From assembly GCA_004124295.1 (NCBI GenBank), contig SCKI01000001.1:248001-312000 (forward strand): DNA of 64,000 nt. The letters run 5' to 3'. Position numbers and translations under genes: made by a program. The stretch's first letter is position 1, and each line of letters begins with the position of its first letter. The stretch is from Fidelibacterota bacterium. Lineage in GTDB: Bacteria > Fidelibacterota > Marinisomatia > SCGC-AAA003-L08 > TS1B11. The notes beneath the pieces were generated by a model. That model made no database searches. It worked only from the letters and a program-made list of their open reading frames with translations, and was not told the origin of the DNA. Below are positions 18,526-46,341 of this stretch, piece after piece.

Positions 18526-18662
18526 CCCGCAGGCGGCCGTTGGGCGCCGGTGTGTGGATGATGAAGCAATGGGGTCGGCCCCGGGGGATGGGAGGGCAGT
18601 CAGGGCGATCCCACCGGGGCCTTTGGGCAAATCAGATCAAGCTTGGGACGGCATCAATCCCC

Positions 18663-19457
18663 TTACGGCGTGAGCTCGAAATTGGCACTGGTCTGGCTGC
18701 CGGCGGTGACGTCCACTATCGTGGAAACCGTATCGTAACCACTCAGGGTGGCGCTCACCGTATAGGAGCCGGGCAGCAACCCCAGCAGGGCATAACTGCC
18801 GTCACTTGAGGAGAAGGTGCTGGAAATAATGCTGTCCTGCTCGGCCCAGACCTCAGCGTTGTTCAGAGCAACCGCCGCAGTATCGCTGACCCCGCCGGCG
18901 ACACTGCCCACGGTGGAACTGTTCACCGCCCTGAGCACGGGCTTGAATAAAAATCCACTGATATTGTTGGCCGTGCCGAGAGCAACAAAGGATTTACTCA
19001 CGTCAAAATCCAGCAGCAGGTCGGAGGTAACCCCACCGGTCACTTCTATGGCCGGGCTGACGAAAATCTTGATCCCCGTCTGGGCTCCGCTGGGCACGGT
19101 CAAGTCATACACCGTACCGTCGTTCATGACGACCTGGCCGGCCGAAACGTACAGCCGCAGCAGGTCATAGCTGCCTGCCGGGACTTCAACTGCCGCCAGA
19201 TTTGCCGTCACACCGTTGCGCAGGTCGAGGAGGTTGTATTCCTGGGTGGTCTCGGAAAGGGTCAGGAAAGGGTTGCCATTGCCTGAGCCGCGCACTTCCA
19301 GCTTGGTGATGGTGACGTTGGCCTGGGCCACCAGGTCGCCGGGGAAGGGGGCGTCGGTGAGTGTTACCGACAGGGTGCCGTTTTCCTCCGCCGGCGCCGA
19401 ACAGGCGACCAGTGCGGCCACCATGGCCAAGGGTATTATTTGAAGTATCTTGATCAT
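18663..19457 (-). CDS. DUF4382 lipoprotein with carboxypeptidase-regulatory-like domain
   Basis: From the ATG at 19457 the 264-residue protein has a lipobox ending LVAC (Cys19). Residues about 28-165 match the DUF4382 pattern (GTLSVTLTDAPFPGD, then PAGSYDLLRLYV and LLLDFDVSKSFV). The C-terminal part is a carboxypeptidase-regulatory-like beta sandwich (SSDGSYALLGLLPGSYTVSA, then VTAGSQTSANFELTP). The function is unknown and it probably faces the periplasm or surface. It is a paralogue of the next gene upstream. Two CRP-like sites lie 78-120 nt upstream of its start. Confidence 0.85.
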   Translation of the reverse strand: MIKILQIIPLAMVAALVACSAPAEENGTLSVTLTDAPFPGDLVAQANVTITKLEVRGSGNGNPFLTLSETTQEYNLLDLRNGVTANLAAVEVPAGSYDLLRLYVSAGQVVMNDGTVYDLTVPSGAQTGIKIFVSPAIEVTGGVTSDLLLDFDVSKSFVALGTANNISGFLFKPVLRAVNSSTVGSVAGGVSDTAAVALNNAEVWAEQDSIISSTFSSSDGSYALLGLLPGSYTVSATLSGYDTVSTIVDVTAGSQTSANFELTP

Positions 19458-19534
19458 GTCTCTTGTATCCTTTATTGCTGGTAATTTCTCAAATTCTTGT
19501 GCCCGAAATGTACCTCTCCGGCTCGGGCGCAAGG

Positions 19535-19577
19535 GTGATGCCGGTCACCTGGTCCGCACCTGTGTGATATTTGCCAC
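19535..19577. promoter_or_regulatory. Tandem CRP/FNR-type operator pair (second copy)
   Basis: GTGATGCCGGTCAC (19535-19548) and GTGATATTTGCCAC (19564-19577) fit GTGA-N6-TCAC, the second with one mismatch. Their starts are 29 bp apart, as in the pair at 13921-13963. They are 78-120 nt upstream of the DUF4382 start codon, nearly the same distance as for the giant surface-protein gene. This suggests a shared regulator, not identified here. Confidence 0.55.
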
Positions 19578-19611
19578 AGGGCCGGGTCATGACAGGGCGG
19601 GAATATCGGCG

Positions 19612-20418
19612 TCAATCTCCTTGGGGCGTCAGGTCGAAATCGGCACCGGCCAGGCTGTCAGCGACGACATTCACCATCGTGGAGACGGTGTCGTAACCAA
19701 TCAGGGTCGCACTGACTGTATAGGAGCCCGGCAGCAATCCCAGCAGCACATAACCGCCATCGTTTGCAGAGAAGGTACTGGAGATAATGCTGTCCTGCTC
19801 GGCCCAGATCTCAGCATCGACCAGCAGCGCGGTTCCAATGTCACTGACACTGCCGGCGATATGGCCGATGCCGAAACTGTTCATGGCCCTGAACACCGGC
19901 CTGAACTGAAAGCCACTGATCGTGTCCGCAGTCAGGATGGGAGTAAACGATTTGCTGACGTCGAAGTCCAACAGAAGTTCGGAGGTGAACCCGGCCCTTA
20001 TTTCAATAATCGGTCGGATGGGTACGCTGTTCCCGGCCAGGGCGCCGTCGGGTGCTATCAAATTATAGATTTCACCCTTTTTCATGACGATCTGCCCTGA
20101 GACCACGTACAACCGGAGCACGTCGTAGGATCCCGGCGGGACTTGTGCCAGCCCCAGATTCGCCGTAAGGCCATTGCGCAGTTCGAGGAGGTTGTAATCC
20201 CGGACGCCTTGATAGATAATCCGGTAGGGGGCTGCCTCGTCCTCACCTGTCGCGCGCATTTCCAGCGTGCTGATGGTCACATTGGCCTCGGCCACCACGC
20301 CGCCCGGAAAGGGGGTGTCGGTAAGTTGGACACTTATCGCGCCGTTATCGGGGGGCAACGCGCAGGCGGCAACGGCCAGCATAATTGCCGCCAGGATCAG
20401 ATGTGGAATTTTTATCAA
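19612..20418 (-). CDS. DUF4382 lipoprotein, second tandem copy
   Basis: The 268-residue protein is a clear paralogue of the downstream DUF4382 gene along its whole length. Shared blocks include LLLDFDVSKSF, AEQDSIISSTFS and LLGLLPGSYTVSATL. I place the start at a TTG (20418): the protein then begins MIKIPHLI and its lipobox cysteine is residue 19, exactly as in the paralogue. An in-frame ATG at 20529 would add 37 residues of basic, non-signal sequence. It is exported as a lipoprotein; the function is unknown. Confidence 0.8.
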   Translation of the reverse strand: MIKIPHLILAAIMLAVAACALPPDNGAISVQLTDTPFPGGVVAEANVTISTLEMRATGEDEAAPYRIIYQGVRDYNLLELRNGLTANLGLAQVPPGSYDVLRLYVVSGQIVMKKGEIYNLIAPDGALAGNSVPIRPIIEIRAGFTSELLLDFDVSKSFTPILTADTISGFQFRPVFRAMNSFGIGHIAGSVSDIGTALLVDAEIWAEQDSIISSTFSANDGGYVLLGLLPGSYTVSATLIGYDTVSTMVNVVADSLAGADFDLTPQGD

Positions 20419-23902: not shown

Positions 23903-24448
23903 ATGCCGGCCCAAGAAAAAACTGTCCCCATTCAGGACCAGGCAAGGGAAAGTCAGGTTATTACATTATTTGGGTTAACACCTAACCCTGATCGACTCGG
24001 TCCCGATGCCTTTGATGAGATGGGGAATCCCTATGAATTAAAATCTACAACAGTTAGCGGGGTTGGCACTGGTCGTGATGTCAGTCTTAAAATGATAAAA
24101 AGGTGGTTAACAAGATATTGGCTGATCTCAAGAGGGAAAAATTTCAAAAGCGGGTTCCAAATTGAACAAGTCTACTTTCTACACCCTGATGACATTGCTG
24201 GAAGACTTTTAGAAATTGGGGCTCAAATTGCCCCTGATTTAAAACTACGCAATACTGTACTGGAAAAATTAAAAGACGAAATATCTAAGGAAGCATTAGG
24301 GCGGGTAAAATATCTTATGAGCCGGGGCGCAACCTTGAATAACCCCAAAATATCCTGGAAGTATATCGTAACAAATGGCACTTTAATAGATCAGGATCAC
24401 CAAAGGCGCCTTAAGAAATTGGTGAAGGCACGCCCAATTATTTCGTAA
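23903..24448 (+). CDS. Probable type II restriction endonuclease (PD-(D/E)XK)
   Basis: The 181-residue protein carries a PD-(D/E)XK nuclease signature: Pro34-Asp35, then Glu45 and Lys47 in PDAFDEMGNPYELKS. No closer family is recognisable and the recognition site cannot be inferred. The context supports a restriction role: a controller-type regulator lies immediately upstream, and a DNA methylase is convergent, with the two genes overlapping by 11 nt at their 3' ends. The region is AT-rich compared with the flanks, which suggests transfer. Confidence 0.75.
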   Translation: MPAQEKTVPIQDQARESQVITLFGLTPNPDRLGPDAFDEMGNPYELKSTTVSGVGTGRDVSLKMIKRWLTRYWLISRGKNFKSGFQIEQVYFLHPDDIAGRLLEIGAQIAPDLKLRNTVLEKLKDEISKEALGRVKYLMSRGATLNNPKISWKYIVTNGTLIDQDHQRRLKKLVKARPIIS

Positions 24449-25883
24449 GTGTAATAATTGTTTCGCGCAACTTGAACCTATGCCTTGAACTTCCTCGGGA
24501 TCTGAATGGTTCAACTAATTTCTTAGAAAAACCTACTTCAATACCAATGTCCCCTAATATTTCGTCAGTAGGCACATGAAAACCATTTATTGCAGAATCT
24601 CCTACTATAAACCGATATGATGCGCCCCGCTTGAGAACCCGATATATCTCCCTAATATGTGAAGTCATATCAACAAAATATTCTGCCACCATTCTTGGAT
24701 GATCCCAACCCCAGGATCTCTCCTTGCCCTTCAGCCGCACTTGGCTAGAGATCTTTTTTATAGTCTTGAAAACATCTAAATCAGGGAGATTATCTGGGTA
24801 ATCACGATTGGTTTTAAATAGGTGCTTCGTATTTGCCCTTATCAGTCGTTCTTTCAGATGCCTCATTTCGCCATCTGATCGAACTAGTCCGAGCAAATAC
24901 AATTCTAGGCGTGTATTATCTAAATAATCAACTTCATTTAGATATGGCGGAGAAGTAATAGCGCCATCAACGCTCTCGTCTGTTAAATGGCTTAAATCTG
25001 TTGCTGATCCCAGGTGCATGTGTGGGTCTAACTCATTCTTAGGGATGGAATTAAGGTCATCCATCATCATGCCCAGTTTTTGAAGGAAAAGCATATAGAC
25101 TGGTGCTCTCTCACAGATAATTCTGGAAGATTTGCGGCGGCGGTAGGCAATTTTTGGGCCATGCATTTTCATATTGCTTACATGCATGAGTATGGAACCG
25201 TAAGCTAGTTGAACAAACCGGTTAACATTTCCTGTTTCACTCCCTTCAAGGGAGAAAATGAGATTGCCCAAATCAAGCGCTTTCTCCAGGACTTTGGGAG
25301 AAATCCAAGAGGTTAAATGTGGAACATTGGATTCTTTCCCCCAGATAATAAGATTTGTTTTTCTGTTATTAGCACCACGGGCCCTTATGGAGGACAGATG
25401 GGCCTTGATATCAGTAGTAGGAACCTCACTCCAGGCAAAATCACCATCATTTGCGACTGCCAGAGAAAGCGCACCCTTCAAAGCGATGTATCTCTCTAAT
25501 ACTTGGTCTTTAGATATGCTCCAATCAGTTTTAACTAGTCCTGCAAGATAGTGAAAGGGATTTGCCTCAACACCTGTCCCTTGTACGCCATTTAGCATTG
25601 AAGAAATAATTGATGTTCCTGTTCCCGAGAAGGGATCTAATAGCAAAGAATCTTTATTTAGGGCCCAGTTGGAAATCGAATCACTTACGAAGGATCCAGA
25701 GTATCCTGCCACAATACTGAACCAGTTATTGACGGGAAGTTCCCCTAAATTGTGTGCAAATTCATTTGAACGGCGTGGCGGCACATGCCCTGATTTGTGA
25801 AATTCTTCATCAGGTAGAATCTGGGGAAATAGAGTTTCTTGTTCCATCCGCTTCGTATTATCTTGAGTACCCCGCAAGGTCAT
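24438..25883 (-). CDS. DNA methyltransferase of the type II restriction-modification system (N4/N6 amino-MTase)
   Basis: The 481-residue protein has the SAM-binding motif I (DPFSGTGT, residues 83-90) and the catalytic motif IV as SPPY near residue 310. SPPY is more often found in N4-cytosine methylases, while N6-adenine enzymes usually have DPPY or NPPY. The long stretch between them may be the target-recognition region. An alternative ATG at 25847 would remove 12 residues; neither start has a strong ribosome site. It would protect host DNA from the convergent endonuclease. Confidence 0.85.
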   Translation of the reverse strand: MTLRGTQDNTKRMEQETLFPQILPDEEFHKSGHVPPRRSNEFAHNLGELPVNNWFSIVAGYSGSFVSDSISNWALNKDSLLLDPFSGTGTSIISSMLNGVQGTGVEANPFHYLAGLVKTDWSISKDQVLERYIALKGALSLAVANDGDFAWSEVPTTDIKAHLSSIRARGANNRKTNLIIWGKESNVPHLTSWISPKVLEKALDLGNLIFSLEGSETGNVNRFVQLAYGSILMHVSNMKMHGPKIAYRRRKSSRIICERAPVYMLFLQKLGMMMDDLNSIPKNELDPHMHLGSATDLSHLTDESVDGAITSPPYLNEVDYLDNTRLELYLLGLVRSDGEMRHLKERLIRANTKHLFKTNRDYPDNLPDLDVFKTIKKISSQVRLKGKERSWGWDHPRMVAEYFVDMTSHIREIYRVLKRGASYRFIVGDSAINGFHVPTDEILGDIGIEVGFSKKLVEPFRSRGSSRHRFKLRETIITLTK

Positions 25884-26272
25884 TACTTGTCGGGCAAGTA
25901 CATCCTGCCATACCCATCCGACGTTAAGGTATACGCCAAGGCAGAATCTTCAATTAGTTTGTTAATTTAATGCCACTGACCCCCTTCTAGCTTTGGGCTC
26001 GGCATATTGCCGAATTTACCCCCTTCCCTCGCCATTCTGCTCAAGCTTTCCAGATGTTCAATTGTCACGCCATATGTCCCAGAGGCCTCCTCCACCCGCC
26101 CTGTCCCGAGCAGTTCGTTCGCTTATCAGCGACCTCAGCACAAGCTCCGCCGGAGGGACGCCCGGGGAGGGAAAGGGGCCGCCAGCGCCACCGGCAGGGG
26201 TTACTTTGACCTTCGTCTTTTGCTATCCTTCCGGATAACCCTTATATTGTAGCGGTCCACGATTACTTCACG
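25884..26272. other. 389-bp intergenic region with dnaE2 remnant
   Basis: The region between the methylase and the TPR signalling gene goes from AT-rich back to GC-rich at about 25990. It contains a decayed copy of the dnaE2 3' end (26021-26115, annotated separately). The rest, including about 150 bp upstream of the TPR gene, holds no gene I recognise. Confidence 0.6.
26021..26115 (-). pseudogene. Remnant of a dnaE2 3' end
   Basis: Read on the minus strand, this stretch encodes TGRVEEASGTYGVTIEHL then ESLSRMAREG. The intact dnaE2 at 28480-31554 ends TGRVEEAWGTHSVTIKTL then ASLSRMAREGLKQ. About 23 of 31 residues are identical, and the frame is the same with no internal stop. Upstream of the match the similarity stops abruptly and in-frame stops appear. 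It is therefore a fragment left after deletion, or a duplicated gene end, 2.4 kb from the intact copy with the TPR gene in between. Confidence 0.85.
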
Positions 26273-28048
26273 ATGTCACAACAGTCCAGACTATCTGCTT
26301 TCATCGCTGAGCTCCGCCGCCGGAGGGTCTTCCGGGTGGCGGCCTGTTACGGCGGTATCGCCTTCGTCATCGTGCAGATTATCGATGGGACCTTCGAGGT
26401 CATGGGCATCCCGGCCTGGGTCAGCCGCCTGCTGATCACCCTGCTGGGCATCGGCTTCCCCATCGCCATCGGCCTGGCCTGGGCCTTTGACATCACCCCG
26501 GAAGGGATCGTCCGTACGGAAGGGCGCGCGACCGGGAAGCCGGGGACGAGTAATAAAGCATTGGTCGCCGTTACCCTTTTTGCTATTGCCTTCGGCATCT
26601 GGGCCCGCTGGGGTGGCGGCGGCACAGTTGGAGAGATTCGATCTATCGCCGTGCTGCCGCTGACCAACCTCATGAACGATCCCGACCAGGACTATTTCGT
26701 CGATGGCATGACCGAAGCGCTGATCACCGAGCTGTCCAAGATCAGTGCCCTGCGGGTGATCGGCCGCACCTCCACGATGCACTACAAGAATGCGCCCCGG
26801 CCCATTTCAGAAATCGCCGATGCCCTGGATGTGGATGCGGTCGTGGAGGGCTCCGTTCTATTGGCCGGCGAGCAGGTGCGCATCACCGCGCAGCTGGTGG
26901 GCACCCGCCCTGAGCGCCATCTGTGGGCGGAGCAATTCGACCGCGATTTTGTCGACATTCTGGCCTTGCACAGCGACGTGGCCCGGGCCATCGCTGAGCA
27001 GATCAAGGCTACCTTGACCCCGGAGGAAGAAGTTCGTCTCACCACCACCCGCCAGGTTAAGCCTGAGGCCTATAACCTGTATCTCAGGGGGTGGCATTTT
27101 CGCAAGCTGGAGAGTGACGAAAGCATGCCTAAGGCCGTGGAATACCTGGAGCAGGCTGTAGCGCTGGACTCCACCTTCGCCCGGGCCTGGGCGGCGCTGG
27201 GCCATAGCTACCTTCAGATGCAATGGAATGGCGGCTGGGATCGCGATTATGCCTATAATCGGATGAAACCAGCGCTCGATAAAGCTCTGGAGCTGGACCC
27301 CAACCTGCCGGAAGCCCATGCGGGTCTGGGGATTTACTACCATTTTAAAGTGGATTTACTCACCGCCGAATTATCTTTCAGACGGGCGCTGGAGCTGGAT
27401 TCCGATAATGTCTATGCCCGCTACGAATACGGCGTTTTCTTGATCCGTATGGGCAGGCTTGATGAGAGCCTTGGCGAGTTTCGGTGGGCCCTAAAGCTGG
27501 ATCCCCTTAATCCTCAGCCCCAGTGGGGAATCGGCGTCATCTATCTCACCACCCGCCAGTATGATAGAGCCCTGGAATACTTTCAGGCTGTTTTGGAGCT
27601 TGCTCCCGGCCATTGGCAGGCGCCCGGTAATATGGCTTCGGCAAAGCGTGAAATCCTCATGCAGCAGGGCCGCTACGCGGAAGCTGCCGCCAAGGCGGGA
27701 AAAGCGGGGGATTTATTCCTGCAGCTGCGGGCTGAGTGGGCCTTGGGGAACCGGACAAAAGTTTACGCGGTCCGTGATTCGCTGAGGTCCACCGGGGAGC
27801 TGCAGCAGCATGAGCAGGAGCATCCATTCTGGTCTGCGCGCCTTTTTGCGATCATGGGTGAGAAGGATAAGGTCTTCAGCCTGTTGGAAAGGGCCTATGA
27901 AGACACCACTAAAGAGTTCTATTATTATGCAGGGCTCGTTTACTATCCGGAATTTGATTTCCTCCGCGCCGAGCCCCGGTTCAAGGTCCTGTTGAAGAAA
28001 ATGGGACTGAGGGAAGTATTCGATCAATCCGGCCAGAGAATCCGGTAG
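26273..28048 (+). CDS. Membrane TPR protein with FlgO/TolB-like domain
   Basis: The 591-residue protein has three membrane segments near the N-terminus (FRVAACYGGIAFVIVQIID, LLITLLGIGFPIAIGLAWAF, ALVAVTLFAIAFGIW). A FlgO/TolB-like domain follows (IAVLPLTNLMNDPDQDYFVDG, then LRVIGRTSTMHYK and VEGSVLLAGEQVRITAQL). From about residue 265 there are five or more TPR units. This architecture is common next to adenylate cyclase or kinase domains, but none is present here. A scaffold or signalling role at the inner membrane is inferred. It is flanked by a dnaE2 fragment upstream and a truncated paralogue start downstream. Confidence 0.75.
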   Translation: MSQQSRLSAFIAELRRRRVFRVAACYGGIAFVIVQIIDGTFEVMGIPAWVSRLLITLLGIGFPIAIGLAWAFDITPEGIVRTEGRATGKPGTSNKALVAVTLFAIAFGIWARWGGGGTVGEIRSIAVLPLTNLMNDPDQDYFVDGMTEALITELSKISALRVIGRTSTMHYKNAPRPISEIADALDVDAVVEGSVLLAGEQVRITAQLVGTRPERHLWAEQFDRDFVDILALHSDVARAIAEQIKATLTPEEEVRLTTTRQVKPEAYNLYLRGWHFRKLESDESMPKAVEYLEQAVALDSTFARAWAALGHSYLQMQWNGGWDRDYAYNRMKPALDKALELDPNLPEAHAGLGIYYHFKVDLLTAELSFRRALELDSDNVYARYEYGVFLIRMGRLDESLGEFRWALKLDPLNPQPQWGIGVIYLTTRQYDRALEYFQAVLELAPGHWQAPGNMASAKREILMQQGRYAEAAAKAGKAGDLFLQLRAEWALGNRTKVYAVRDSLRSTGELQQHEQEHPFWSARLFAIMGEKDKVFSLLERAYEDTTKEFYYYAGLVYYPEFDFLRAEPRFKVLLKKMGLREVFDQSGQRIR

Positions 28049-28151: not shown

Positions 28152-28479
28152 CCCGTCTACGTCCACCAAAGGCCGACCTACGCCGGGCAAGCCTGAAACC
28201 TGAATCTCTTCCTCCCCCTCACGGCTGATCGCTGATAGCAGATGACTCGGGACTCAGGACTTAGGACTCAGGACTTAGGACCTGAAACCCGTCTACGCTT
28301 CGCTACGCCGGGCAAGCCCGTAGCTCACATAGGACTTAGGACTTAGGACTCAGGACTTGAAACCCGAAACCCGCAACCCGTAACTAGAAACTCCCTCCCC
28401 CCTCACCGCTACTCTGCTCACGGCTCACCCGTCTACGCTCTGCTATGCCGGGCAAGCTGCCTACTGCCACTGCCAACTG
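28152..28479 (-). repeat. Largest composite word-repeat array, three cores
   Basis: Three copies of the core (CTTGCCCGGC, variable middle, GTAGACGGG on the minus strand) lie at 28152-28191 (expanded to 40 bp), 28288-28316 and 28428-28456 (29 bp each). Between them are degenerate runs of AGGACTTAGGACTC, GAAACCCGAAACCC, CTCACCGCTACTCTGCTCAC and CTGCCACTGCCAACTGC words. The last class runs directly into the dnaE2 stop codon at 28480. There are no spacers, cas genes or coding potential. Confidence 0.8.
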
Positions 28480-31400
28480 CTACTGCTTCAACCCCTCCCT
28501 CGCCATGCGGCTCAAACTGGCCAGCGTCTTGATGGTGACGCTATGCGTGCCCCAGGCCTCCTCCACCCGTCCCGTCACCAGCATCATTTTTTCCCAGCGC
28601 ACCAGGTCGTTGAACAGCCGGTACTGGGCCGGAAACAGGACGCACTCGAACACGTCGCTGCGGTCCTCGAAGGTGAGGAACTCCATCGGCTCCCCCTTGC
28701 GGGTCTGCACCGTTTTGGTGGTGAGGCAGATGCCTGCCAGGGTAACGCTGCGCCCTACATGGCGCGGCAGGTCCCGGGCCAGGATGGTGCGGCCGGCGAT
28801 GATCGACCGATACGGCTCCAGGGGGTGCCAGGTGAGGGGGTAGCCGAAGGAGGCCACCTCCGTCCGGTAGCGCTGGGCCGGGGTCAATCCCTGCAGCTGC
28901 ACCGCCGCCGGTGCGGAGAGTTGGGGCTGGAGCAAACTGCCGCTGCCGGCGTAGACATGGGCGTGGCGTTGCTGCATGAGTTGCAGCAGCAGGTCGGGTT
29001 GGGAGCGGCCCGGCTCCAGCTCATCGAAGCCGCCGGCCCGGATGAGCACCCGGACGTCGGCAAAGGGGATATCGGTGCGCTCCAGGAAGTCGGCCAGGGA
29101 GGCATAATCCCCCTGTTTGCGCTCCTCCAGCAGTTGCTCCAGGCTGGCCCCCTGCAAGTGGCGCAGTTCCATCAGCCCCATCCTGATCCGGCCCCGCTTG
29201 CCGCGCCACTCCCGCCAGCTGCGGTTGATGTGGGGCGGCAGAATCTGTACCCCGCAGCGCCTCGCCTCGCTCATGTAGGCGTAGGGGGAGTAGAAGCCGC
29301 CCCGGTTGGAGATGACCGCCGCCAGAAACTCCGCCGGATGGTGGGCCTTGAGCCAGGCGCAGGTGAACGACAACATCGCATAGCTGGCCGAGTGGGGCTT
29401 GCAGAAGGAGTAGCCTTTGAAGCTGTCGATCATGTCCCAGACCTGCCGCACCGCATCTTCCGGGTAACCGTTGGCCAGGGCGCCGCTGATGAACTGCTTC
29501 TTCAGGGCCGGGATCATCGGCCGCAGGGAGCGCTTGGTGCCGATCTTGCGCAGGGTGTCGGCGTCGGCGTAGTTGAACCCGGCCAGCACCCGGGCGGCGA
29601 TGGAGACCTGCTCTTCGTACACCATCAAGCCGTAGCTCTCCGACAGAAAGTCGAGGTCGGGATGGAGCAGCTTCCAGGGCCGGCCGTGAATCCGCTCGAT
29701 GAGCTGGTTGATGAACCGGTTGGCGGCAGGCCGGATGATTGAGGAGTAGATGACCACATGCTCAAAATCGACCTTGCCGGCCTTGGCCAACAGTTGGCGG
29801 GTGGCGGGGCTCTCGATATAGAAAATGCCCATGGTCCGGCCGCTCTCCATCAGCCGGCGGGTGGCGGGATCGTCCAGCGGGTCGATGTCGTGGTAGCGCA
29901 GGGGCGGTCCCCCGGCGCCGTAGAGGTTGATGTCCCTTAGCGCATCCCGGACCACCGCCAGGGAACGGTTCCCCAGCAGGTCGATTTTCACCAGGCCGGC
30001 GTCCTCCACCTGGTCTTTTTCCCATTGCACGATGGGGACCCCCTTGGGGGCGGTGAGCACCGGCACGTAGCGCCGGATTTCGTCCGGGACCACCACCACG
30101 CCACCGGCATGCACCGACGGATAGTGGAACACCCCCACCAGCCGCATGGCCAGGCGCAGGATCTCCTCCAGGGTGCCGTCGATGTGCAGGCGGGGAGCGG
30201 CGGCGGACAGGTTGGCTTCTTCAGGGACCGTCAACGGCCCAGCGCTGACCACCCGGTTGGGGAACCCGGCCTGGCCGAAGACCAGATGGATGCGCCGGGT
30301 GACGGCGAGAATCTCCTCGTTGGACAGGCCGTAGACCTTGGCCACCTCCCGCACTGCCGACCGGGGCTGGAGGGTCACCTGGTTGGAGACCATGGCGGCC
30401 CTGCCGGCGCCGTACTTGCGGAAGACATAGGCCAGCACGGCGTCCCGCTCATCCCAGGCAAAATCGACGTCAATGTCGGGAAGGTCGGTGCGGTCGGCAT
30501 GCAGGAAGCGCTCGAAGTAGAGATTGTGGGCGATGGGATCGACCTGGGTGATGAACAGGCAGTAGCTGACGATGGACGCCGCCGCGCTGCCCCGGCCGAT
30601 GGTGAGTCTGGTGCCGTCGGCGCCCGGCAGGGGTGACTTGTGCACGATGTCGGCCACCACCAGAAAGTAGGAGGCGAACCCCTTGGCGCCGATCAGGGCC
30701 AGTTCCATGTCGATGCGCGCCCGGACCGCCTCCGGCAGCGGCTCGGCGTAGCGCTTTACCGCCCCGGCTGCCACCAGCTCCCGTAGCCGGGCATCGTGAC
30801 CATTGCGGCCGCCGGGAAAAATGGTGGCGGAAAAGTCCCACTCGGTGTGGCAGCGGCGGGCCAGGGCGGCGGCGTTGTCCAGTGCCTGCGGGCAGTGCGG
30901 CAGGCGGCGGCGGAGAGTGGCTTCATCGGCAAAGTGCTGCTGGGGACCGAACCGCTCCCAGGGCGGCAGCTCGGAGAGGCGCTGGTTGCGGTCGATGGCC
31001 CGGAGGAGGGTGGCCAGGGGGGCATCGGCCGGGGCCAGAAAGTGAACCGCTCCGGTGGCGACCGGCTGCAGGCCCAGGCGCCGGCAGGCCCGCAGCAGTG
31101 GCGCGGTGTCATGGCCGGGACGCAGTTCGGCGTACAGCTGGTCCTCCGGCAGCAGCGCCGCCAGCCGTTCCAGCAGGGTCTCATCCGGGCAGAGGACAAA
31201 CAGCCCCTGGCCGAAGCGCTCCAGCAGCGCTGCCACATCGGCGGCAGGGTCGTCATGGACCGCCGAGATCAGGCGCGACAGGTTGGCGTAACCGGCCTGG
31301 TTCTCCACCAGCAGCAGCAGGTCCTGGGCCGGCGCCTGCCCCGCTTTGCCGGTCAGTATCTGCGACCCGCAGATGGCTTGCAGCCCTGCCGCCTTCGCCA

Positions 31401-31554
31401 GCCGGGTAAAGTGGACGAAACCCCACAGGCCGTTGGTGTCGGTGAGGGCCAGGCCGGGCTGACCGAGCTCCTTCGTCCGGGCCAGGAGGTCCTCGATGGA
31501 GGCGGTGCCGCGCATGGGCGAGAACCGGGAGTGGACATGGAGGTGGCAGAACAT
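28480..31554 (-). CDS. dnaE2: Error-prone DNA polymerase III alpha subunit, DnaE2/ImuC type
   Basis: The 1024-residue protein has an N-terminal PHP domain (HLHVHSRFSPMRG) in which the usual DHDGL is DTNGL, as expected for a degenerate PHP domain without proofreading. The polymerase palm follows, with the catalytic PDIDVDF near residue 358, then fingers, helix-hairpin-helix and a C-terminal OB domain. The length and the adjacent ImuB-like gene identify it as the mutasome polymerase DnaE2 (ImuC), used for SOS mutagenesis, rather than the replicative alpha subunit. The last three residues fall where a word-repeat array abuts the gene. Confidence 0.9.
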   Translation of the reverse strand: MFCHLHVHSRFSPMRGTASIEDLLARTKELGQPGLALTDTNGLWGFVHFTRLAKAAGLQAICGSQILTGKAGQAPAQDLLLLVENQAGYANLSRLISAVHDDPAADVAALLERFGQGLFVLCPDETLLERLAALLPEDQLYAELRPGHDTAPLLRACRRLGLQPVATGAVHFLAPADAPLATLLRAIDRNQRLSELPPWERFGPQQHFADEATLRRRLPHCPQALDNAAALARRCHTEWDFSATIFPGGRNGHDARLRELVAAGAVKRYAEPLPEAVRARIDMELALIGAKGFASYFLVVADIVHKSPLPGADGTRLTIGRGSAAASIVSYCLFITQVDPIAHNLYFERFLHADRTDLPDIDVDFAWDERDAVLAYVFRKYGAGRAAMVSNQVTLQPRSAVREVAKVYGLSNEEILAVTRRIHLVFGQAGFPNRVVSAGPLTVPEEANLSAAAPRLHIDGTLEEILRLAMRLVGVFHYPSVHAGGVVVVPDEIRRYVPVLTAPKGVPIVQWEKDQVEDAGLVKIDLLGNRSLAVVRDALRDINLYGAGGPPLRYHDIDPLDDPATRRLMESGRTMGIFYIESPATRQLLAKAGKVDFEHVVIYSSIIRPAANRFINQLIERIHGRPWKLLHPDLDFLSESYGLMVYEEQVSIAARVLAGFNYADADTLRKIGTKRSLRPMIPALKKQFISGALANGYPEDAVRQVWDMIDSFKGYSFCKPHSASYAMLSFTCAWLKAHHPAEFLAAVISNRGGFYSPYAYMSEARRCGVQILPPHINRSWREWRGKRGRIRMGLMELRHLQGASLEQLLEERKQGDYASLADFLERTDIPFADVRVLIRAGGFDELEPGRSQPDLLLQLMQQRHAHVYAGSGSLLQPQLSAPAAVQLQGLTPAQRYRTEVASFGYPLTWHPLEPYRSIIAGRTILARDLPRHVGRSVTLAGICLTTKTVQTRKGEPMEFLTFEDRSDVFECVLFPAQYRLFNDLVRWEKMMLVTGRVEEAWGTHSVTIKTLASLSRMAREGLKQ

Positions 31555-31563
31555 GGGGAGGGG

Positions 31564-31882
31564 TATTAGTCGTTAGTGGTTAGTTGTTAGTGGTTAGTTG
31601 GCAGCCCTGAGCGAAGCAGCCGTGCAGGGGGAGTTTCTGGTTTCAGGTTTCATGTTCAAAGTTCAAGGTTTCAGTCTCCGGTCCGCCGTGGCAGTAGGCA
31701 GCTTGCCCGGCGTAACAAAGTGTGGACGGGTGAGCAGTTGGGATCAGCATCCGGCAGCGCACATCCCACATCCAATATCCAGTGACAGGCTTACCCTTCG
31801 CTGGCTTCATCCTTCGACCCTTCGGCCCCGCTCAGGGCAGTCAAGCTCAGGATGACGAGAAGCAGGGTTGTCATCCTGAGGC
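31564..31882 (+). repeat. Composite word-repeat array between dnaE2 and imuB
   Basis: This 319-bp stretch contains TTAGTGGTTAGTTG words (31564-31600) and GGTTTCAGGTTTCATG/GTTCAAAGTTCAAGG words (31638-31675). A GGCAGTAGGCAG word then leads into a 29-bp core (31702-31730; CTTGCCCGGC, ten bases, GTGGACGGG), followed by TGAGCAG. Next come CACATCCCACATCCAATATCC-type words (read in pieces) and a long inverted repeat (31816-31895). No gene is present. It separates two genes that are usually close together. Confidence 0.78.
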
Positions 31883-37316: not shown

Positions 37317-37633
37317 GCTTACCTCCTTGCAGCCTGCTGAAACTAAGCAGGAAAAACCTGATTCTCAACGGGCAAAAGCAATCCGGGATGCGGGATGGAT
37401 TGCAGATGGGAGATGCGGGAAGTTGGACGCTGGATGTTGGATGTGGAATGTTGGGTGTCTGCCGCGACCCCCCTCACGACCGCTCACGGATACCAGATGA
37501 CGATAGGCTCTGGACTTATAACCTGAAACCTGAAACCTGCAACTCCCCGCTACCCGCTACTTTGCTCACGGCCCATCGCTCACCGCTGCTACGGCCCCCT
37601 GCCCCTGCCACTGGTTACGGCGGCCACTGGCCC
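37317..37633. other. 317-bp intergenic region filled by a word-repeat array
   Basis: Apart from about 60 bp upstream of the beta-barrel gene start (37317-37380), this spacer is a composite word-repeat array, annotated separately. No gene or RNA is recognisable. Confidence 0.65.
37382..37633 (-). repeat. Composite word-repeat array
   Basis: Read on the minus strand outward from the stop codon of the barrel-protein gene at 37634, the order is: CAGTGGCAGGGGCAG words, GCGGTGAGCGATGG/GTGAGCAAAGTAGCGG words, TTGCAGGTTTCAGGTTTCAGG-type words, AAGTCC words, then ACATTCCACATCCAACATCC words. This is the same order of classes as at 28.4 and 40.0 kb. A good match to the 29-bp core is missing here. Confidence 0.75.
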
Positions 37634-38230
37634 CTACTTCCCCTGCCTGAAGTAGTAGTTCAGCGTCACGTTGGTCAGCACCGCAGAGAGAATGGTACGG
37701 GTATTGGACATATAATTGTCCCACTCGCTGGTGTATTCCGTGGTATGGTACACCAGATTGAAGGCCGCTTCACTGCCTATGGAGAACTGGTCCGAGACGA
37801 AATACTCCACCCCTATGCCGGCCGTCAGCCCGATGAGGTCGAGGGCATCCCGGGCCTCCGATTTGTCATCTGCTTCCAGGTCCGAGCCGTTCACGATGGG
37901 TAACAGGTAAAACGCCTCCACCAGTGTGTAGCTGCGCAGATCGCCGGTGCGGGGACCTATGAGCCTCACGCCGACCTTGGGCATGAAGAAATGCACGGAG
38001 AAATCGCGCTCGCCTGAATCGTAATCGCTGCTCCAGCTCCGCTTGGTAGATGCGGCGAAGTAGCCCAGGGACAAGGTCGGCACGATGCTGCGCTCACCCT
38101 GCAACCTTTCGGCCAGCAGTATCTGGACATGTGAAATGGGACCGCCCCGTTTGAAGCTCAGGTTAGGTGTATCGGCCAGCAGGCCCGATACGAGCCCCGC
38201 CAGCAGCAGTAATGTGATACGGTAAAACAT
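37634..38230 (-). CDS. Predicted outer-membrane beta-barrel protein
   Basis: The 198-residue protein begins MFYRITLLLLAGLVSGLLA, a signal peptide. The mature part has alternating amphipathic strands and ends TLNYYFRQGK. I chose the ATG at 38230 because AAAGGAG lies 6 nt upstream; an ATG at 38236 touches the ribosome site and is too close. The family was not recognised; an OmpW/OmpX-like porin fold is plausible. A word-repeat array begins immediately at its stop codon. Confidence 0.6.
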   Translation of the reverse strand: MFYRITLLLLAGLVSGLLADTPNLSFKRGGPISHVQILLAERLQGERSIVPTLSLGYFAASTKRSWSSDYDSGERDFSVHFFMPKVGVRLIGPRTGDLRSYTLVEAFYLLPIVNGSDLEADDKSEARDALDLIGLTAGIGVEYFVSDQFSIGSEAAFNLVYHTTEYTSEWDNYMSNTRTILSAVLTNVTLNYYFRQGK

Positions 38231-38470
38231 GTTCATCTCCTTTTCATCATCACCTGGTTTGTCGATGCCTGGCACCAACCTGCCGGATCATAGGCATTTG
38301 GCGGACGGCTGTTGTCATGGAACTGTCATCGAATTGTAAAAAGATGTCAGGATGAAGGGAGTGCGCCGCATGAGCGGTCGAAAGCGAGCATGTCGGCCGA
38401 GGGATGCATGGTTTTGCACTCCGCCAACAGGATGAACTGAGGCCATGTGCAGCCACGGCCGGGCGCTGCT

Positions 38471-39646
38471 TTAGAACAGGGTTAGGACGAGTTCCGGGGC
38501 GGCGTTGGCCAGAGCGAGGGAGGCGAAGGCGGTCTGCTGAATGATCTGTAACCTGATCCGGCGGGAGACCTCCTGGGCAAAGTCGACATCCTCGATACGG
38601 CTACGGGCCGCTTCAGTATTTGATGTGGCCGAGGCCAGTGTGTCAGACTTGGATTCCAGCCGGAGCATATATTCACCCACGTTCTGGGCGATCTGATTGA
38701 GGGCATTTATGGCGTCATTGATGATCTGCAGGGATTCTGTCGCCTCACTGGCATTCAGCACGGAAAGGGCGGCCGTAATGGCGCTGAAATCGGAGGTGGT
38801 GGAGGCCTGCCCGTTCAAGGTGTCGTCGCTGTTGGTATTGAAGCCCAGCTCTGGAGCGAGATTTGCGGAGATCCCGTCAGTCCATTTGAGGATGACGGTA
38901 ACGGGGCTCCCGAACTTGGTAATGGTGAACAGTCCGGAAGGATCATCGTAGGATACGGAGAAGTTTACGCCGGGTGTGACCGAGGCGGCATCCAGAGCTG
39001 CTTCGACGGCGGCAGCCAGCTGGGACAGGGTATAGGTGCCGGGAGCGACAGTTGCAATGAGCTCGTTGCCGTTTTCCCTGAAGGCCAGACGGTCGTTATC
39101 GCCGGCGGTGATGGTCACAGTACCCCCCACACCGAAGAGATCTATGGAGCCGGCGCTACCGAGGGAAACCTCGAGGATATCCCCGCTGCCAGCACCTGTC
39201 TGGAACACCTTGTTGGAGAAGGAACCGTCGATGAGGCGGGTACCCTGGAAGGAAGTTTCGGCTACAATGTCGTCGATTTCCTGGGAGAGGGCGTCGATCT
39301 GGCCCTGGATGGCCAGGCGCTGGCTGACGTTATAGGAATCGTCCGCCGCCTGGACGATTTTTTCGGTCATGATCATCAAGATATCGGAGATGGCCCGATA
39401 GCCTCCCTCGGCGATGGCAAGCACGTTCCGGGCGGTATGGACATTGCTTAGGGCCTGGGAAAGGCTTCTTCGGCGCGCCTCCAGTCCTCTGGCGATGGAA
39501 TAGCCAGCCGCATCATCGCTGACATGATTGATACGCCGGCCGGTCGACAGCCTGTATAGACTGTCCCCGAGACTGAGATGGGTACGCCGCAGGCTTTCCA
39601 GGGTCCGCAAGGCGACAATATTTGAGTAAACGCGCGTGATGCTCAT
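38471..39646 (-). CDS. fliC: Flagellin
   Basis: The 391-residue protein has the conserved N-terminal D0/D1 helices (NIVALRTLESLRRTHLSLGD, SLYRLSTGRRINHVSDDAAG, then QGQIDALSQEIDDI) and the C-terminal helix (NTEAARSRIEDVDFAQEVSR, then QQTAFASLALAN). The central variable domain is about 180 residues. It forms the flagellar filament after export by the flagellar type III system. No other flagellar gene is present in the window. A sigma28-like promoter lies about 100 nt upstream. Confidence 0.95.
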   Translation of the reverse strand: MSITRVYSNIVALRTLESLRRTHLSLGDSLYRLSTGRRINHVSDDAAGYSIARGLEARRRSLSQALSNVHTARNVLAIAEGGYRAISDILMIMTEKIVQAADDSYNVSQRLAIQGQIDALSQEIDDIVAETSFQGTRLIDGSFSNKVFQTGAGSGDILEVSLGSAGSIDLFGVGGTVTITAGDNDRLAFRENGNELIATVAPGTYTLSQLAAAVEAALDAASVTPGVNFSVSYDDPSGLFTITKFGSPVTVILKWTDGISANLAPELGFNTNSDDTLNGQASTTSDFSAITAALSVLNASEATESLQIINDAINALNQIAQNVGEYMLRLESKSDTLASATSNTEAARSRIEDVDFAQEVSRRIRLQIIQQTAFASLALANAAPELVLTLF

Positions 39647-39837: not shown

Positions 39838-40030
39838 CCTTGGATGTTGGATGTTGGATAATGGATGATGGATGAGGGATGTGGCCGGATGACAGGTGAC
39901 CACTTTGGCCCTCGCAACTCGAAACTTGTAACCCGAAACTTGCTTCTCGCGGTCCGTCTCGGGGGCATCGCCAACCGCCACTGCCAACCCGTCTACGTTC
40001 TACTGCGCCGGCCAGACTGCCACTGCCTCG
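39838..40030 (-). repeat. Composite word-repeat array next to tRNA-Ile
   Basis: From the tRNA 3' end outward on the minus strand the array contains CAGTGGCAG words, a 28-bp version of the core (39988-40015), further TTGGCAGTGGCGG words, GTTTCGGGTTACAAGTTTCG words, and finally CATCCAACATCCAAGG words. The order matches the other arrays. The region from the flagellin start to this array (39647-39837) contains only the flagellin promoter. Confidence 0.75.
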
Positions 40031-40103
40031 TGGGCCCTCCAGGATTCGAACCTGGAACCGACGGATTATGAGTCCGGCGCTCTAACCGTTGAGCTAAGGG
40101 CCC
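40031..40103 (-). tRNA. tRNA-Ile2 (anticodon CAT)
   Basis: A complete cloverleaf is visible: acceptor GGGCCCT/AGGGCCC, D arm TAGCTCAACGGTTAGAGC, anticodon loop CTCATAA, T arm with GGTTCGAATCC, and discriminator A. The anticodon CAT could mean Met or Ile2. The 1-72 G-C pair excludes the initiator, and the C4-G69 and C5-G68 pairs are TilS determinants, so I favour isoleucine tRNA read after lysidine modification. The 3' CCA is not encoded. Confidence 0.88.
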
Positions 40104-40171: not shown

Positions 40172-42916
40172 TCAGTTGGTATTAGAGAAGGTAATCTCGT
40201 ACGTCACGCCAGCGTCATCGCGTACCACCAGATTGGCCTCCAGTTGCTTGACCAGGTTTTCCACCAGCTCCAGGCCCAGAGAGGAAGTATTTCCGGTGTC
40301 GTCTTTCGGCAGTCCTACACCATCATCGCTGATGATCATTTTGCAGACCCCGTCATTTTCTTCCAGGGACAGCCGGATAATCCCTTTGCGGCCCTGCGGA
40401 ATGGCGTGTTTCATGGCGTTGGTCACCAGCTCATTGATGATGAGTCCAACCGGGATGGCGGTATCAAGATTCATGGAGATATCGTCAGCTGTCATCTCGA
40501 TGGAGATGGACTGGGAATCAATGGTATACGTATCCGAGAGATACGAAACCAGATCATGCATATATTGTGCAACCTCGATTTCCGCGAGACTATCAAATTG
40601 ATATAAATGTTCATGCAGCAGTGCCATGGCCATTATTCTGGCCCGGCTCTCAGTGAAGGCGCTGGCGAGCTCGGCATTATCGAGCTTGTTTGCCTGCAAT
40701 TGGAGCAGGCTGGAAATAATCTGCAGGTTGTTTTTGACCCGGTGATGGATTTCCTTCAGCAGGATTTCCTTCTCAATCAGCGATTTCCCGATTTTTTCCT
40801 GCGCCAGGACCTGCGCAGTGGTGTCATGCGCCACGTCGACGATCCCATTGATCCCCGGCGTATCGGGCAGGTAGGCGAAGGTGCTGTTGAAGTAGAGTGT
40901 TTCGCCGCTTGGCATAACCGTCTTCAGTGATTCCAGGGTCACAATTTCCCCTGGATGGGCAACCACATATTCAAGGGTCTCCTTCAGCTGCTCGTAACCA
41001 TCGGGATGGGCAAACTCAAGGGCACTGATTCCAATCACATCCTCCGGCTCCATACCGAGCTTCCGGATTGCCGGGCTGCTCCATGTGATTATCCCGTCCT
41101 TATCAAGAATGATGATGAAATCGTTCAAGTTTTCGATGAGAGCGCGGTGCTTTTCTGCACTCGCTTCGAGGGCGATCTTGGCCTGCTCGCGCTCGGTAAT
41201 ATCCCGTGTGACAGTGGCAAAGTTGATCGGTTCGCCACTGGTGGGATGATCAATCCTGAATATATCGAAGAACACGGGGATTTCTGCACCGGTCCCAAAA
41301 TGACGAAAATGAAGATCCCCAGACCAGCGGCCACTATCCATCAATTCAGGCAAGATTTCCTTTTCTAGAATCTCCCGATCGGCATCCGTGAAATAGTCGG
41401 ACATCATGGTACTTAAGAACTGCTCATCATCCTCTATGCCAACCAGCTCCCGCCCAGCACTATTGAGGAACAGTGCGTGACCCTGTAGATCTGCGATACC
41501 GATAAAGTCGGATGAGTATTTCACGATTGAAGCCATCCGCTCAATTTCTTCTTCGGCCTGCTTGCGCTTACTAATGTCTTTTACTACGCTAACGATGCCC
41601 AAAAAGTTGCCCTCATTATCTTGAAGCTTAGATACTGTGTGTTCTGAGGGGAATATTTCGCCGTTTTTCCTTTTCACCTCAAATTCGAAGTGTGCAATTT
41701 TATTCTGCTCGAATGCGGCATTTATTCGCGTTTCGAACTCTACATAATGTTGATGGTCCACGTGGACGAATTCAGTTGATAGCTTCGAAATCTCCTCCAA
41801 TGTGTACCCGAACATTCGACTTGCGGACGAATTAATGTTAAGTATTTCACGGTCAGGTGAAACAACAAAGACGGCATCGACAGTTGATTCGAATATCCCG
41901 CGAAACCATTGCTCAGATTTTTCCAGTTCCTTTTTTGCCTCTTGGCGCTCGGTTATATCAATCAATACGATGCGCCTGAAGTCACCCTCTGGGACATAGT
42001 CAACGGAGAGGCTCACCCACCTGATTTCGCCATCAGCGCGAAGTAACTGTAGTTCCTCCCCCTGGATTTTTTCACCCTTCCTGATGCGCTTGGCAATCCG
42101 CCTGGCTTTCGACTTCCCGCTAGGCGTATCCGCATATTTGTCTATTGCCGATTTTTTCAGCAGTTCCTCCCTGGAATAGCCGGTCAGCTCCACAGCGGCC
42201 TGGTTGACTTTGGAAAATTCACCAAACTTTCCACTCGTGAAGTACGCCAGTGGCATCGATTCGTAGAGATCGCGGTACAATTGTTCACTTTTGCGCAGCT
42301 CTTCCTCAACCTGTTTTTTCTCTTTGATTTCCCTCAGCAAGCGAAGGTTTATTTCGGACAGCTCCCGGCTCCGCTCCTCCATGAAACTTTTGAGTTCTGC
42401 GGAGGCAGCAAGATTGGCCGCCTCGGCTTCCTTTCGACCTGTGATATCAAGGGCGACGCCCTCCAGCCATAGCGGTTTCGATTCACTGTCGTAGGTTGCT
42501 GTGCCCCTATCATGGACCCAGCGGACTTTACCCTCGGTGGTTAAAATCCGGTATTCGATTTCGTATGCCGTACGATCTTCCACGGCCTTGTTCACAGCCT
42601 CGGCCACGCTTTCCCCGTCATCAGGATGTATTATCTCGCCAAACATTATCTCTCCGCTGAGGAACCTCCCGGCAGGATGCCCGCTGAGGGACTCGACGGC
42701 GTCACTGATGTACAGAAGCCTCCAAGGCGCCTCTACCTCGGCGCGGTACACCATGCCCGGCAGATTGGCCACCAGGGTCCTGAAGCGCTCCGCGCTCATA
42801 TCGAATACGCCTGCCTGGGCCTTGTCCTGCTGCGCCCCTTCCTGTGAAGCGACGAGTTTGCGTAAATCATTCAGTTCTGCAATAAGCAAATTCTTCGTTT
42901 TGCTGGAGTCTTTCAT
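40172..42916 (-). CDS. Multi-PAS sensor histidine kinase (HisKA_2 type)
   Basis: From the ATG at 42916 the protein has 914 residues and no membrane segment. Five PAS/PAC modules occupy most of it (for example GMVYRAEVEAPWRLLYISDA, RELSEINLRLLREIKEKK linker, IFESTVDAVFVVSPDREILN, ITWSSPAIRKLGMEPEDVIG). The kinase core is the HisKA_2 form with the phosphoacceptor in EIHHRVKNNLQIISSLLQLQ, followed by an HATPase domain (NELVTNAMKHAI, DDGVGLP). It is a soluble sensor without an adjacent response regulator, so its output is unknown. A TTG at 42967 is an alternative start. Confidence 0.88.
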   Translation of the reverse strand: MKDSSKTKNLLIAELNDLRKLVASQEGAQQDKAQAGVFDMSAERFRTLVANLPGMVYRAEVEAPWRLLYISDAVESLSGHPAGRFLSGEIMFGEIIHPDDGESVAEAVNKAVEDRTAYEIEYRILTTEGKVRWVHDRGTATYDSESKPLWLEGVALDITGRKEAEAANLAASAELKSFMEERSRELSEINLRLLREIKEKKQVEEELRKSEQLYRDLYESMPLAYFTSGKFGEFSKVNQAAVELTGYSREELLKKSAIDKYADTPSGKSKARRIAKRIRKGEKIQGEELQLLRADGEIRWVSLSVDYVPEGDFRRIVLIDITERQEAKKELEKSEQWFRGIFESTVDAVFVVSPDREILNINSSASRMFGYTLEEISKLSTEFVHVDHQHYVEFETRINAAFEQNKIAHFEFEVKRKNGEIFPSEHTVSKLQDNEGNFLGIVSVVKDISKRKQAEEEIERMASIVKYSSDFIGIADLQGHALFLNSAGRELVGIEDDEQFLSTMMSDYFTDADREILEKEILPELMDSGRWSGDLHFRHFGTGAEIPVFFDIFRIDHPTSGEPINFATVTRDITEREQAKIALEASAEKHRALIENLNDFIIILDKDGIITWSSPAIRKLGMEPEDVIGISALEFAHPDGYEQLKETLEYVVAHPGEIVTLESLKTVMPSGETLYFNSTFAYLPDTPGINGIVDVAHDTTAQVLAQEKIGKSLIEKEILLKEIHHRVKNNLQIISSLLQLQANKLDNAELASAFTESRARIMAMALLHEHLYQFDSLAEIEVAQYMHDLVSYLSDTYTIDSQSISIEMTADDISMNLDTAIPVGLIINELVTNAMKHAIPQGRKGIIRLSLEENDGVCKMIISDDGVGLPKDDTGNTSSLGLELVENLVKQLEANLVVRDDAGVTYEITFSNTN

Positions 42917-43559
42917 GGGTAGTTGGTCACCTTTTGCGGCCGTAGGGAGGAGCAACGGCTTTGTCAATACACACTATCAAATCCTTATTGCCATGCGGAG
43001 CGCGTTGCTCCGGCCCGGCACATATATCATTTCAGCCCGTAGGCTCTCGGTTGAAAAGCTAGGGCGGAAGCGGCGCACTACCAAGGCTAAAATGCTCCGG
43101 CCGGCAGCGACTCCCCCAATGAGTCAGGGTTATTGCCATGGGGACCGGCCCTTGGCATTCGTTCCGGCAGCTTCTCTAATTAGTTTTTCTCGGGGCTGAC
43201 GTGAGTCCGGGGTTCCGGAGCTAAGGGCCGGCGCTGGAGAACCCTACCGCTCCCGTCCCGGCTTCCAGCACGGCGTCGTTACCCTTGCCGGACCGGTCCG
43301 GCTCCACATCCCCGCTGGACCAAACATAGTCGAAGCACGACAACCCTACACTGGCTGAAGCGAGCCATCCCGGACAACCGTTTTTGACGGATTGCCCTCT
43401 AAGATATAAATTGTGCAATTATTGCATCATTGATCAGTCCAGGAAATAATGGTTTCCATTGCCTTGGTAATATGCAGCGGCTATTACCCCTACCGTCATT
43501 TCCCCGGCTGCCCTGGTCTATGCTCGATCAGGGGAGGTAAACCACACGGATGAGGTTCC
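42917..43559. other. 643-bp intergenic region with LamG-gene remnant
   Basis: The first 300 bp upstream of the histidine kinase are GC-rich with several potential hairpins but match no riboswitch I know. From 43221 to about 43370 lies a decayed copy of the LamG lipoprotein gene end (annotated separately). The last 190 bp lead to the serine hydrolase gene, whose ATG is preceded by GAGG. Confidence 0.55.
43221..43370 (-). pseudogene. Remnant of a LamG-lipoprotein gene 3' end
   Basis: On the minus strand this encodes SSGDVEPDRSGKGNDAVLEA then GTGAVGFSSAGP and a TAG stop. The intact gene at 45520-46341 ends SSGDVEPDRSGKGNDAVLEA then GAGEIGFSTAGP and TAG. 28 of 32 residues are identical. Weaker similarity (VGLxxF) continues a little further upstream before it is lost. 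It is a gene-end fragment 2.2 kb from the intact copy, with the serine hydrolase gene in between. Confidence 0.88.
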
Positions 43560-45519: not shown

Positions 45520-46341
45520 CTACGGACCGGCCGTGGAGAACCCTATCTCCCCTGCCCCTGCTTCCAGCACGGCGTCGTTGCCCTTGCCGGACCGGTCCGG
45601 CTCCACATCCCCGCTGGACCCATCCTCGTTGAAGCGCCACAGGCCGATGATCGGGTCCAGGCCACCGGCCGAGTACTGGCGGGTCAGCTTGTCGGGATTC
45701 TGGTAGCGGAACTGCATCTCGCTCTGCGGCAGATCAAAGTCCCACAAGCGCACCTCATCGATGGCGCCATACCAGAAATTGCTCAGGGTGGAGATGTCGT
45801 TGGTCACCCCCCAGTTGGCCCCGATGAGGGCGTCGCTGTCGCCCACCTCCAGATCGAGCGATATGTTCGACGCGGCCAGCAGCTCGCCGTTTCCATAAAC
45901 GGTGGCGGTGACGCCATCGTAGGTCAGCACAATATGGGTAAAGACCTTGCTGTTATCCCAGTTGCAGCCCGGCACCTCCAGACTGATAGAACCGTCGCTG
46001 TCCCGCACCCAATCGTTGCCTATGATCACCAGGATGCGGTCCGGCTGCAACGCGGACCGGAAAATGCCGATTTCCGTCTCGTCCTGGGCGTCGCCGATCA
46101 TGAACAGGGTGGCGAGACCTGCCACCGAGGCCGGCAGCGAGTCGCCGGCGGCCCTGATTTCGATGGAGAAGACATCATCGCTAAAGAAGGCCAGGCTGGT
46201 GGTGTCCCGGGGATCGCCCAACACCTGCCGGTTGTTGATCCGGATATAGGCGCCGCCGGAGAGCTCCACCGAGCGGATCGGTTGGTCCGGCTCCTGGCAG
46301 GCCATCGCCAGCAGAAGGAGTGTCACGCCCAACCGGATCAT
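45520..46341 (-). CDS. LamG/concanavalin-like lipoprotein
   Basis: The 273-residue protein has a lipobox ending AMAC (Cys15). A LamG-type beta-jellyroll follows, with FSIEIRAAGD, FTHIVLTYDGVTATVYGNGE, IDEVRLWDFDLPQSEM and IIGLWRFNEDG as characteristic strands. Such domains bind carbohydrates or proteins at the cell surface. The ATG overlaps the stop of the FN3 lipoprotein gene by 4 nt, so the two are coupled. A 3'-end fragment of a close relative lies at 43221-43370. Confidence 0.82.
   Translation of the reverse strand: MIRLGVTLLLLAMACQEPDQPIRSVELSGGAYIRINNRQVLGDPRDTTSLAFFSDDVFSIEIRAAGDSLPASVAGLATLFMIGDAQDETEIGIFRSALQPDRILVIIGNDWVRDSDGSISLEVPGCNWDNSKVFTHIVLTYDGVTATVYGNGELLAASNISLDLEVGDSDALIGANWGVTNDISTLSNFWYGAIDEVRLWDFDLPQSEMQFRYQNPDKLTRQYSAGGLDPIIGLWRFNEDGSSGDVEPDRSGKGNDAVLEAGAGEIGFSTAGP

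Follow-up and report, generated by a model that had tools for sequence, protein, structure and literature searches.

The locus examined here raises the question of how the end of a gene comes to stand a second time in a genome, on the far side of an unrelated gene. Within the window (the whole 64,000-nucleotide stretch of DNA analysed), a 3'-end fragment of a LamG gene on the minus strand (43221..43342) is followed by a serine hydrolase gene on the plus strand (Pfam Beta-lactamase, PF00144; 43560..45422) and then by the intact LamG (Laminin_G_3) lipoprotein gene, again on the minus strand (45520..46341). Self-BLAST aligns 43221-43342 with 45520-45641, the last 122 bp of the intact gene, in direct orientation and with 85.2% identity over 122 bp (E = 2.7e-33); the longest perfect run is 38 bases. 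The fragment is in frame, ends at its own TAG stop, which is also that of the intact gene, and agrees with the intact end at 28 of 32 residues. The initial annotation had described both this tail repeat and the minus/plus/minus geometry around the serine hydrolase, and both are borne out by our alignment and translation; of the extent it gave, 43221-43370, the start is correct and the end is not, since homology runs from the stop codon, fades after about 122 bp and ceases past 43342. DNA and protein searches of the whole genome (2.55 Mb, 23 contigs) revealed no third copy of the LamG end. The combination of an intact target with a displaced end fragment in direct orientation is a feature of genomic islands. 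Repeats of other kinds are also present in the window, where a 1746-aa open reading frame (8641-13881) has long internal repeats of 67-78% identity at 10823-13294, and at 18649-20326 a unit of about 720 bp is repeated in tandem with 71% identity.

Comparison with relatives identifies what has been added at this place. LamG is the final gene of a family-conserved gene row, and in three relatives (G001, G005 and G013) it is directly followed, after some 26-67 bp, by a tRNA-Met gene, so that the junction is unoccupied; G001 is the nearest genus-mate of the Candidatus Neomarinimicrobiota genome to which the window belongs. The window has a tRNA-Met (CAT) identical to those of G001 and G005 at 40030..40103 on the minus strand, 5.4 kb from LamG, and the gap is filled by the serine hydrolase, the LamG fragment and a multi-PAS histidine kinase gene (HisKA_2; 40172..42967, minus strand) that lies between the fragment and the tRNA. 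As the same tRNA directly follows LamG in these relatives, 5.4 kb has entered this gap. The account in the initial annotation included neither the tRNA nor the histidine kinase as part of the insert. The serine hydrolase is unmatched in 19 of the 19 other relatives listed (E<=1e-30) and in all 244 other genomes of the phylum (E<=1e-40), and its composition is ordinary for its own genome. No recombinase gene lies between LamG and the tRNA, the Pfam assignments of the two inserted genes being Beta-lactamase and PAS/HisKA_2, and the same assignments reveal no transposase in the insert.

The LamG-tRNA gap is also occupied in G006 (2.3 kb) and G003 (11.2 kb), in neither of which it holds an echo of LamG, the term we use for a nearby partial copy of a gene. 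G001 carries a 38-kb element (C7:453930-491732) adjoining this tRNA-Met on its 3' side, with a tyrosine integrase beside the tRNA and, at the far end of the element, displaced tRNA nucleotides 31-73 followed by a homologue of the window gene at 37634-38278. This element and the occupied gaps in other relatives mark the LamG/tRNA-Met place as a hot spot for insertion. A flagellin gene (38471-39646) separates the tRNA-Met from gene 37634-38278 in the window; in G001 the homologue of the latter lies near the point where the tRNA element ends on its far side, and the stretches read gave no match to flagellin. Elsewhere on the window's own contig (C1), a perfect 23-base copy of tRNA-Met nucleotides 31-53 lies at 389076-389098 with no surrounding tRNA, about 450 bp from dprA, and is perhaps an attachment-site remnant.

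The sequence beyond the fragment may preserve a trace of the old neighbour. A stretch at 43202..43229 on the minus strand, overlapping the LamG stop, resembles tRNA-Met nucleotides 2-35, a likeness that is suggestive only: with the LamG-shared end held fixed, its score is equalled by 164 of 20000 shuffles and by 62 of 20000 random pieces of C1, and for the portion past the stop, taken by itself, the figure is 49 of 2000 shuffles. As the tail resembles the 5' half of the tRNA, the fragment is probably a remnant of an old LamG/tRNA junction. A displaced piece of this kind is found in G001 (C1:18727-18826), where the last 29 nt of LamG, a spacer and tRNA-Met nucleotides 1-43 stand together near NYN-domain and Fic genes; it is about 87% like the LamG/tRNA junction of G001 itself, as counted from the alignment. 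In the light of this piece, the window fragment may plausibly, though not certainly, be a remnant of the whole junction as well.

A scan for further echoes compared the starts, middles and ends of genes with their surroundings within 8 kb, outside other genes. It covered 1.49 Mb: the whole of C1, which is 689 kb long with 508 genes encoding 150 aa or more, and a 400-kb portion of each of G001 and G002. Every one of the 19 rows lay on the strand of the gene in question, and the opposite strand gave none; eight rows were for 3' ends, ten for 5' ends and one for a gene middle. At 36 bits, four downstream end rows were observed on C1 vs about 0.05 per side by chance. Among the eight 3' rows, 421608 was judged by eye to be a tRNA artefact and two have less than 150 bp between the copies; the five with one or two genes between belong to dnaE2, LamG and an aminotransferase in the window's own genome, ispF in G001 and argH in G002. 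Beyond the two cases of the initial annotation, a third thus lies on C1 and one more in each 400-kb portion of G001 and G002. The distance from the intact end to the echo is 1960-2368 bp in all five cargo cases, and no common end motif among their sites was seen by eye. Echoes with short inserts, 100-250 bp, occur at C1:236221 of the own genome, at C7:190339 in G001 and at ispF in G007; the first (C1:236221-237447) is an imidazolonepropionase-like gene whose 3' end recurs 117 bp downstream, the interval being free of genes. Two generalizations were abandoned. A specificity for 3' ends is not shown by eight 3' vs ten 5' rows, several of the latter being reciprocal or closely spaced (513945/516178, 603727/604975 and 685010/688687), and a palindromic CTCACCCC..GGGGTGAG repeat was rejected as a general cause on finding one exact paired instance in 1.49 Mb. 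Candidates dropped from an earlier protein scan were gene 33/34 (a local repeat family), 64, 223 (weak), 366 (tRNA) and rows 277/278, a permease paralogue and its antisense open reading frame.

The parallel drawn in the initial annotation between LamG and dnaE2 is real, but the dnaE2 echo is weaker. Its fragment (26021..26112, minus strand) is 74% identical over 92 bp to 28492-28583, within the end of the intact gene (28480..31554, minus strand), and a TPR gene on the plus strand (26273..28048) stands between them; on the far side of the fragment is a DNA methylase-like gene (N6_N4_Mtase; 24438..25883, minus strand) of atypical composition. The intact dnaE2 is flanked by 54-bp inverted repeats of 87% identity (28420-28473 / 31685-31738), and 31604-31665 also pairs with 37511-37572. 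The aminotransferase case (C1:358272-359465) is on the same contig and has the same layout as LamG. In four of the four family relatives fetched the next conserved gene directly follows the aminotransferase without a gene in the gap, the stops of the two being 33-53 bp apart in G001, G003 and G004, while in G005 the next gene looks shortened; in the own genome the gap is occupied by a KefB-like antiporter, the fragment and an endonuclease/phosphatase-family gene. Compared with the end of this neighbour in G001, the tail of the aminotransferase fragment is matched as well by 3 of 1000 shuffles; a trace of the neighbour is not significant against G005 (155/1000), G004 (166/1000), G003 (67/1000) or the own neighbour (975/1000).

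For ispF, gltX follows directly in the own genome, G002, G003 and G006, leaving the site unoccupied, and the gap in G001 holds a pair of AAA_21 ATPase and DUF4276 genes (Pfam), the fragment and a methyltransferase gene. The ispF-gltX junction is itself a hot spot for insertion across G001, G004, G005, G007 and G008, the inserts recognized by eye including a DUF3800-like open reading frame (G004), a four-helix IVP-like open reading frame (G008), an IS3 remnant (G005) and a 240-bp palindromic insert with an echo (G007). The cargo at argH in G002 is an M3 peptidase; its homologues in the two relatives whose surroundings were read have no closely related argH adjoining, and no donor was found. The argH echo and fragment comparisons leave out G010. 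The search for empty sites proposed in the initial annotation thus succeeded at LamG, aminotransferase and ispF, where the gap contents compared with the relatives place the fragment between two added genes in every case; at dnaE2 and argH no unoccupied site can be named, because the relatives read do not share a conserved downstream neighbour.

Whether fragment and intact end are two alleles or a gene end and its decaying copy was approached through codon positions in six pairs: LamG, dnaE2, aminotransferase, ispF of G001, argH of G002 and ispF of G007. Fragment and intact ends are 73-90% identical, with 102 differences in 182 codons, falling 28/20/54 on codon positions 1/2/3. The excess at third positions, with the six pairs pooled, has p = 3.5e-5 against an expectation of one third; the pairs contain no frameshift, and no stop where 3.5 would be expected (P = 0.03). 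In view of these properties the ends look like two alleles and unlike the product of decay in place. Individual sites add detail. The aminotransferase fragment ends in KGFG*, which is family-like (NFS*, NIS*, DFS*), whereas KGLGWKPDR*, the end of the intact gene, is oddly extended; the dnaE2 fragment has VTIE, its Glu being shared with five of six relatives, and the intact gene VTIK, with Lys. In the LamG pair the intact end is closer to G001 than the fragment at differing positions, judged by eye, and the fragment may be the incoming allele or may have drifted. Both ispF ends of G007 carry a FIGR motif unusual for the family and their differences show no third-position bias, so that this pair alone looks like a simple duplication. 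On sequence grounds the evidence favours two alleles joined by recombination, and it is not decisive, because constraint on the intact copy gives some third-position excess even for decay in place and because of the G007 pair. The initial annotation had proposed gene insertion with duplication of the neighbour's 3' end; the insertion is supported, and "duplication" is probably inexact, the codon positions suggesting diverged alleles.

The same data bear on the alternatives. A duplication in place would start from a staggered break or template switch at the LamG end, by which foreign DNA was captured and 120 bp of the target were copied, the copy having drifted since. It would account for an insert flanked by direct repeats, for echoes in the short-insert cases and for the shared FIGR and missing third-position bias in G007; the pooled third-position excess, the lack of frameshift and stop, and the family-like stop and residue retained in the aminotransferase and dnaE2 fragments and missing from the intact copies argue against it, and we consider it possible but doubtful. 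Site-specific integration would involve a small element bearing a substitute gene end and a recombinase acting in trans, with regeneration of the target and displacement of the fragment. The anatomy is compatible with this, as is the narrow spacing of the five cargo cases; moreover, the 38-kb element shows that in G001 an integrase really does target the tRNA-Met beside LamG, and G001 has the displaced piece of LamG end and tRNA 5' half on another contig. The inserted genes include no recombinase, however, the five targets are unrelated, and fragment and intact ends are only 73-90% identical; we regard such integration as unlikely.

Decay of a tandem LamG paralogue, also entertained in the initial annotation, agrees with a fragment that is in frame and has the same stop as the intact gene. 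Of ten family relatives, nine have one full-length LamG each and the tenth has none; that none of the ten has a complete second LamG largely refutes this explanation. The intervening serine hydrolase is moreover foreign to the phylum, and the repetition of the pattern at dnaE2, aminotransferase, ispF and argH would call for five independently lost paralogues, so that we regard decay as very improbable. A chance resemblance or a motif common to LamG proteins, for which nothing was found in favour, is refuted by the E value, the perfect run of 38 bases and the occurrence of the LamG end at two genomic places only; its probability is negligible.

The fragment is probably the scar of a gene acquisition at a gene end, of which the family holds more cases. 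Our preferred explanation, to which we assign a probability of about 0.5, is homology-anchored, one-sided recombination that adds neighbour genes at gene ends, the LamG fragment being a leftover allele end. The incoming DNA would stem from a related cell and bring the conserved end of that cell's LamG together with a neighbouring gene; its LamG end, the candidate homologous anchor, would recombine by homology with the resident one, and its opposite end would be joined without homology. This would regenerate a complete LamG, add the serine hydrolase and leave, on the far side of the latter, another LamG end, of no use and still attached to the trace of the old tRNA junction. The histidine kinase would have entered between this remnant and the tRNA that is still intact, either together with the hydrolase or in another event. 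We infer the one-sided homologous step, and the assignment of the two ends to donor and resident, from the anatomy, as the insert contains no recombinase gene and no donor genome with LamG adjoining the serine hydrolase was found. A dprA gene, in line with this reading, is present on contig C1. An identity of 85% over 122 bp is low for RecA, which counts against it, as do the ordinary composition of the serine hydrolase and the two occupied LamG-tRNA gaps that lack an echo. There is also a slim chance that Neomarinimicrobiota have recombinase-less cassettes of about 2.0-2.4 kb, each with a substitute conserved-gene end, whose insertion at a gene end by single crossover regenerates the target; conserved gene ends would then be docking sites for the acquisition of one gene at a time.

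The tail echoes suggest that the conserved tail of an existing gene offers a site at which new genes enter by recombination. Outside laboratory crosses there is little documentation of how single genes are gained beside core genes when no mobile element takes part. Gene-end echoes would record such gains in a legible form; a simple scan, comparing gene ends with their neighbourhood and seeking unoccupied sites in relatives, could count these events in any genome collection. Homology-facilitated illegitimate recombination was reportedly first described in 2002. It combines homology at one end with non-homologous joining at the other and is established in laboratory crosses, in naturally competent species and in E. 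coli conjugation (PMC3240628). The present cases would resemble it in the gain of foreign DNA beside a conserved gene, with homology at one end and non-homologous joining at the other, and differ in that the process is deduced from anatomy and that a gene end is doubled where in those crosses neighbouring DNA is lost. The same process has been considered partly responsible for small variable segments in E. coli (PMC2884548), and merodiploids arise by transformation (PMC3784515).

Integrase islands collected in Islander have regenerated targets and displaced fragments (PMC4383910). As in those islands, an intact target is accompanied by a displaced fragment that marks one end of the insert; unlike them, the inserts described here have no integrase, comprise one or two genes bounded by diverged repeats, and have ordinary protein genes as targets in place of tRNA or tmRNA genes. 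The LamG repeats, at 85% identity, are not the near-identical direct repeats of the attL/attR type. The closest natural case is that of the type VI orphan immunity and Rhs 3'-region arrays of Vibrio cholerae, in which a new module arrives with the same conserved anchor and the old 3' end is shifted downstream, so that arrays build up; a process similar to homology-facilitated illegitimate recombination has been put forward for them (PMC5361080). A displaced older 3' end and a conserved anchor, which for LamG is a candidate, are common to both; whereas whole immunity genes or variable tips are displaced in the arrays, the echoes reported here are short, apparently useless ends of ordinary genes, separated from their intact counterparts by unrelated cargo.
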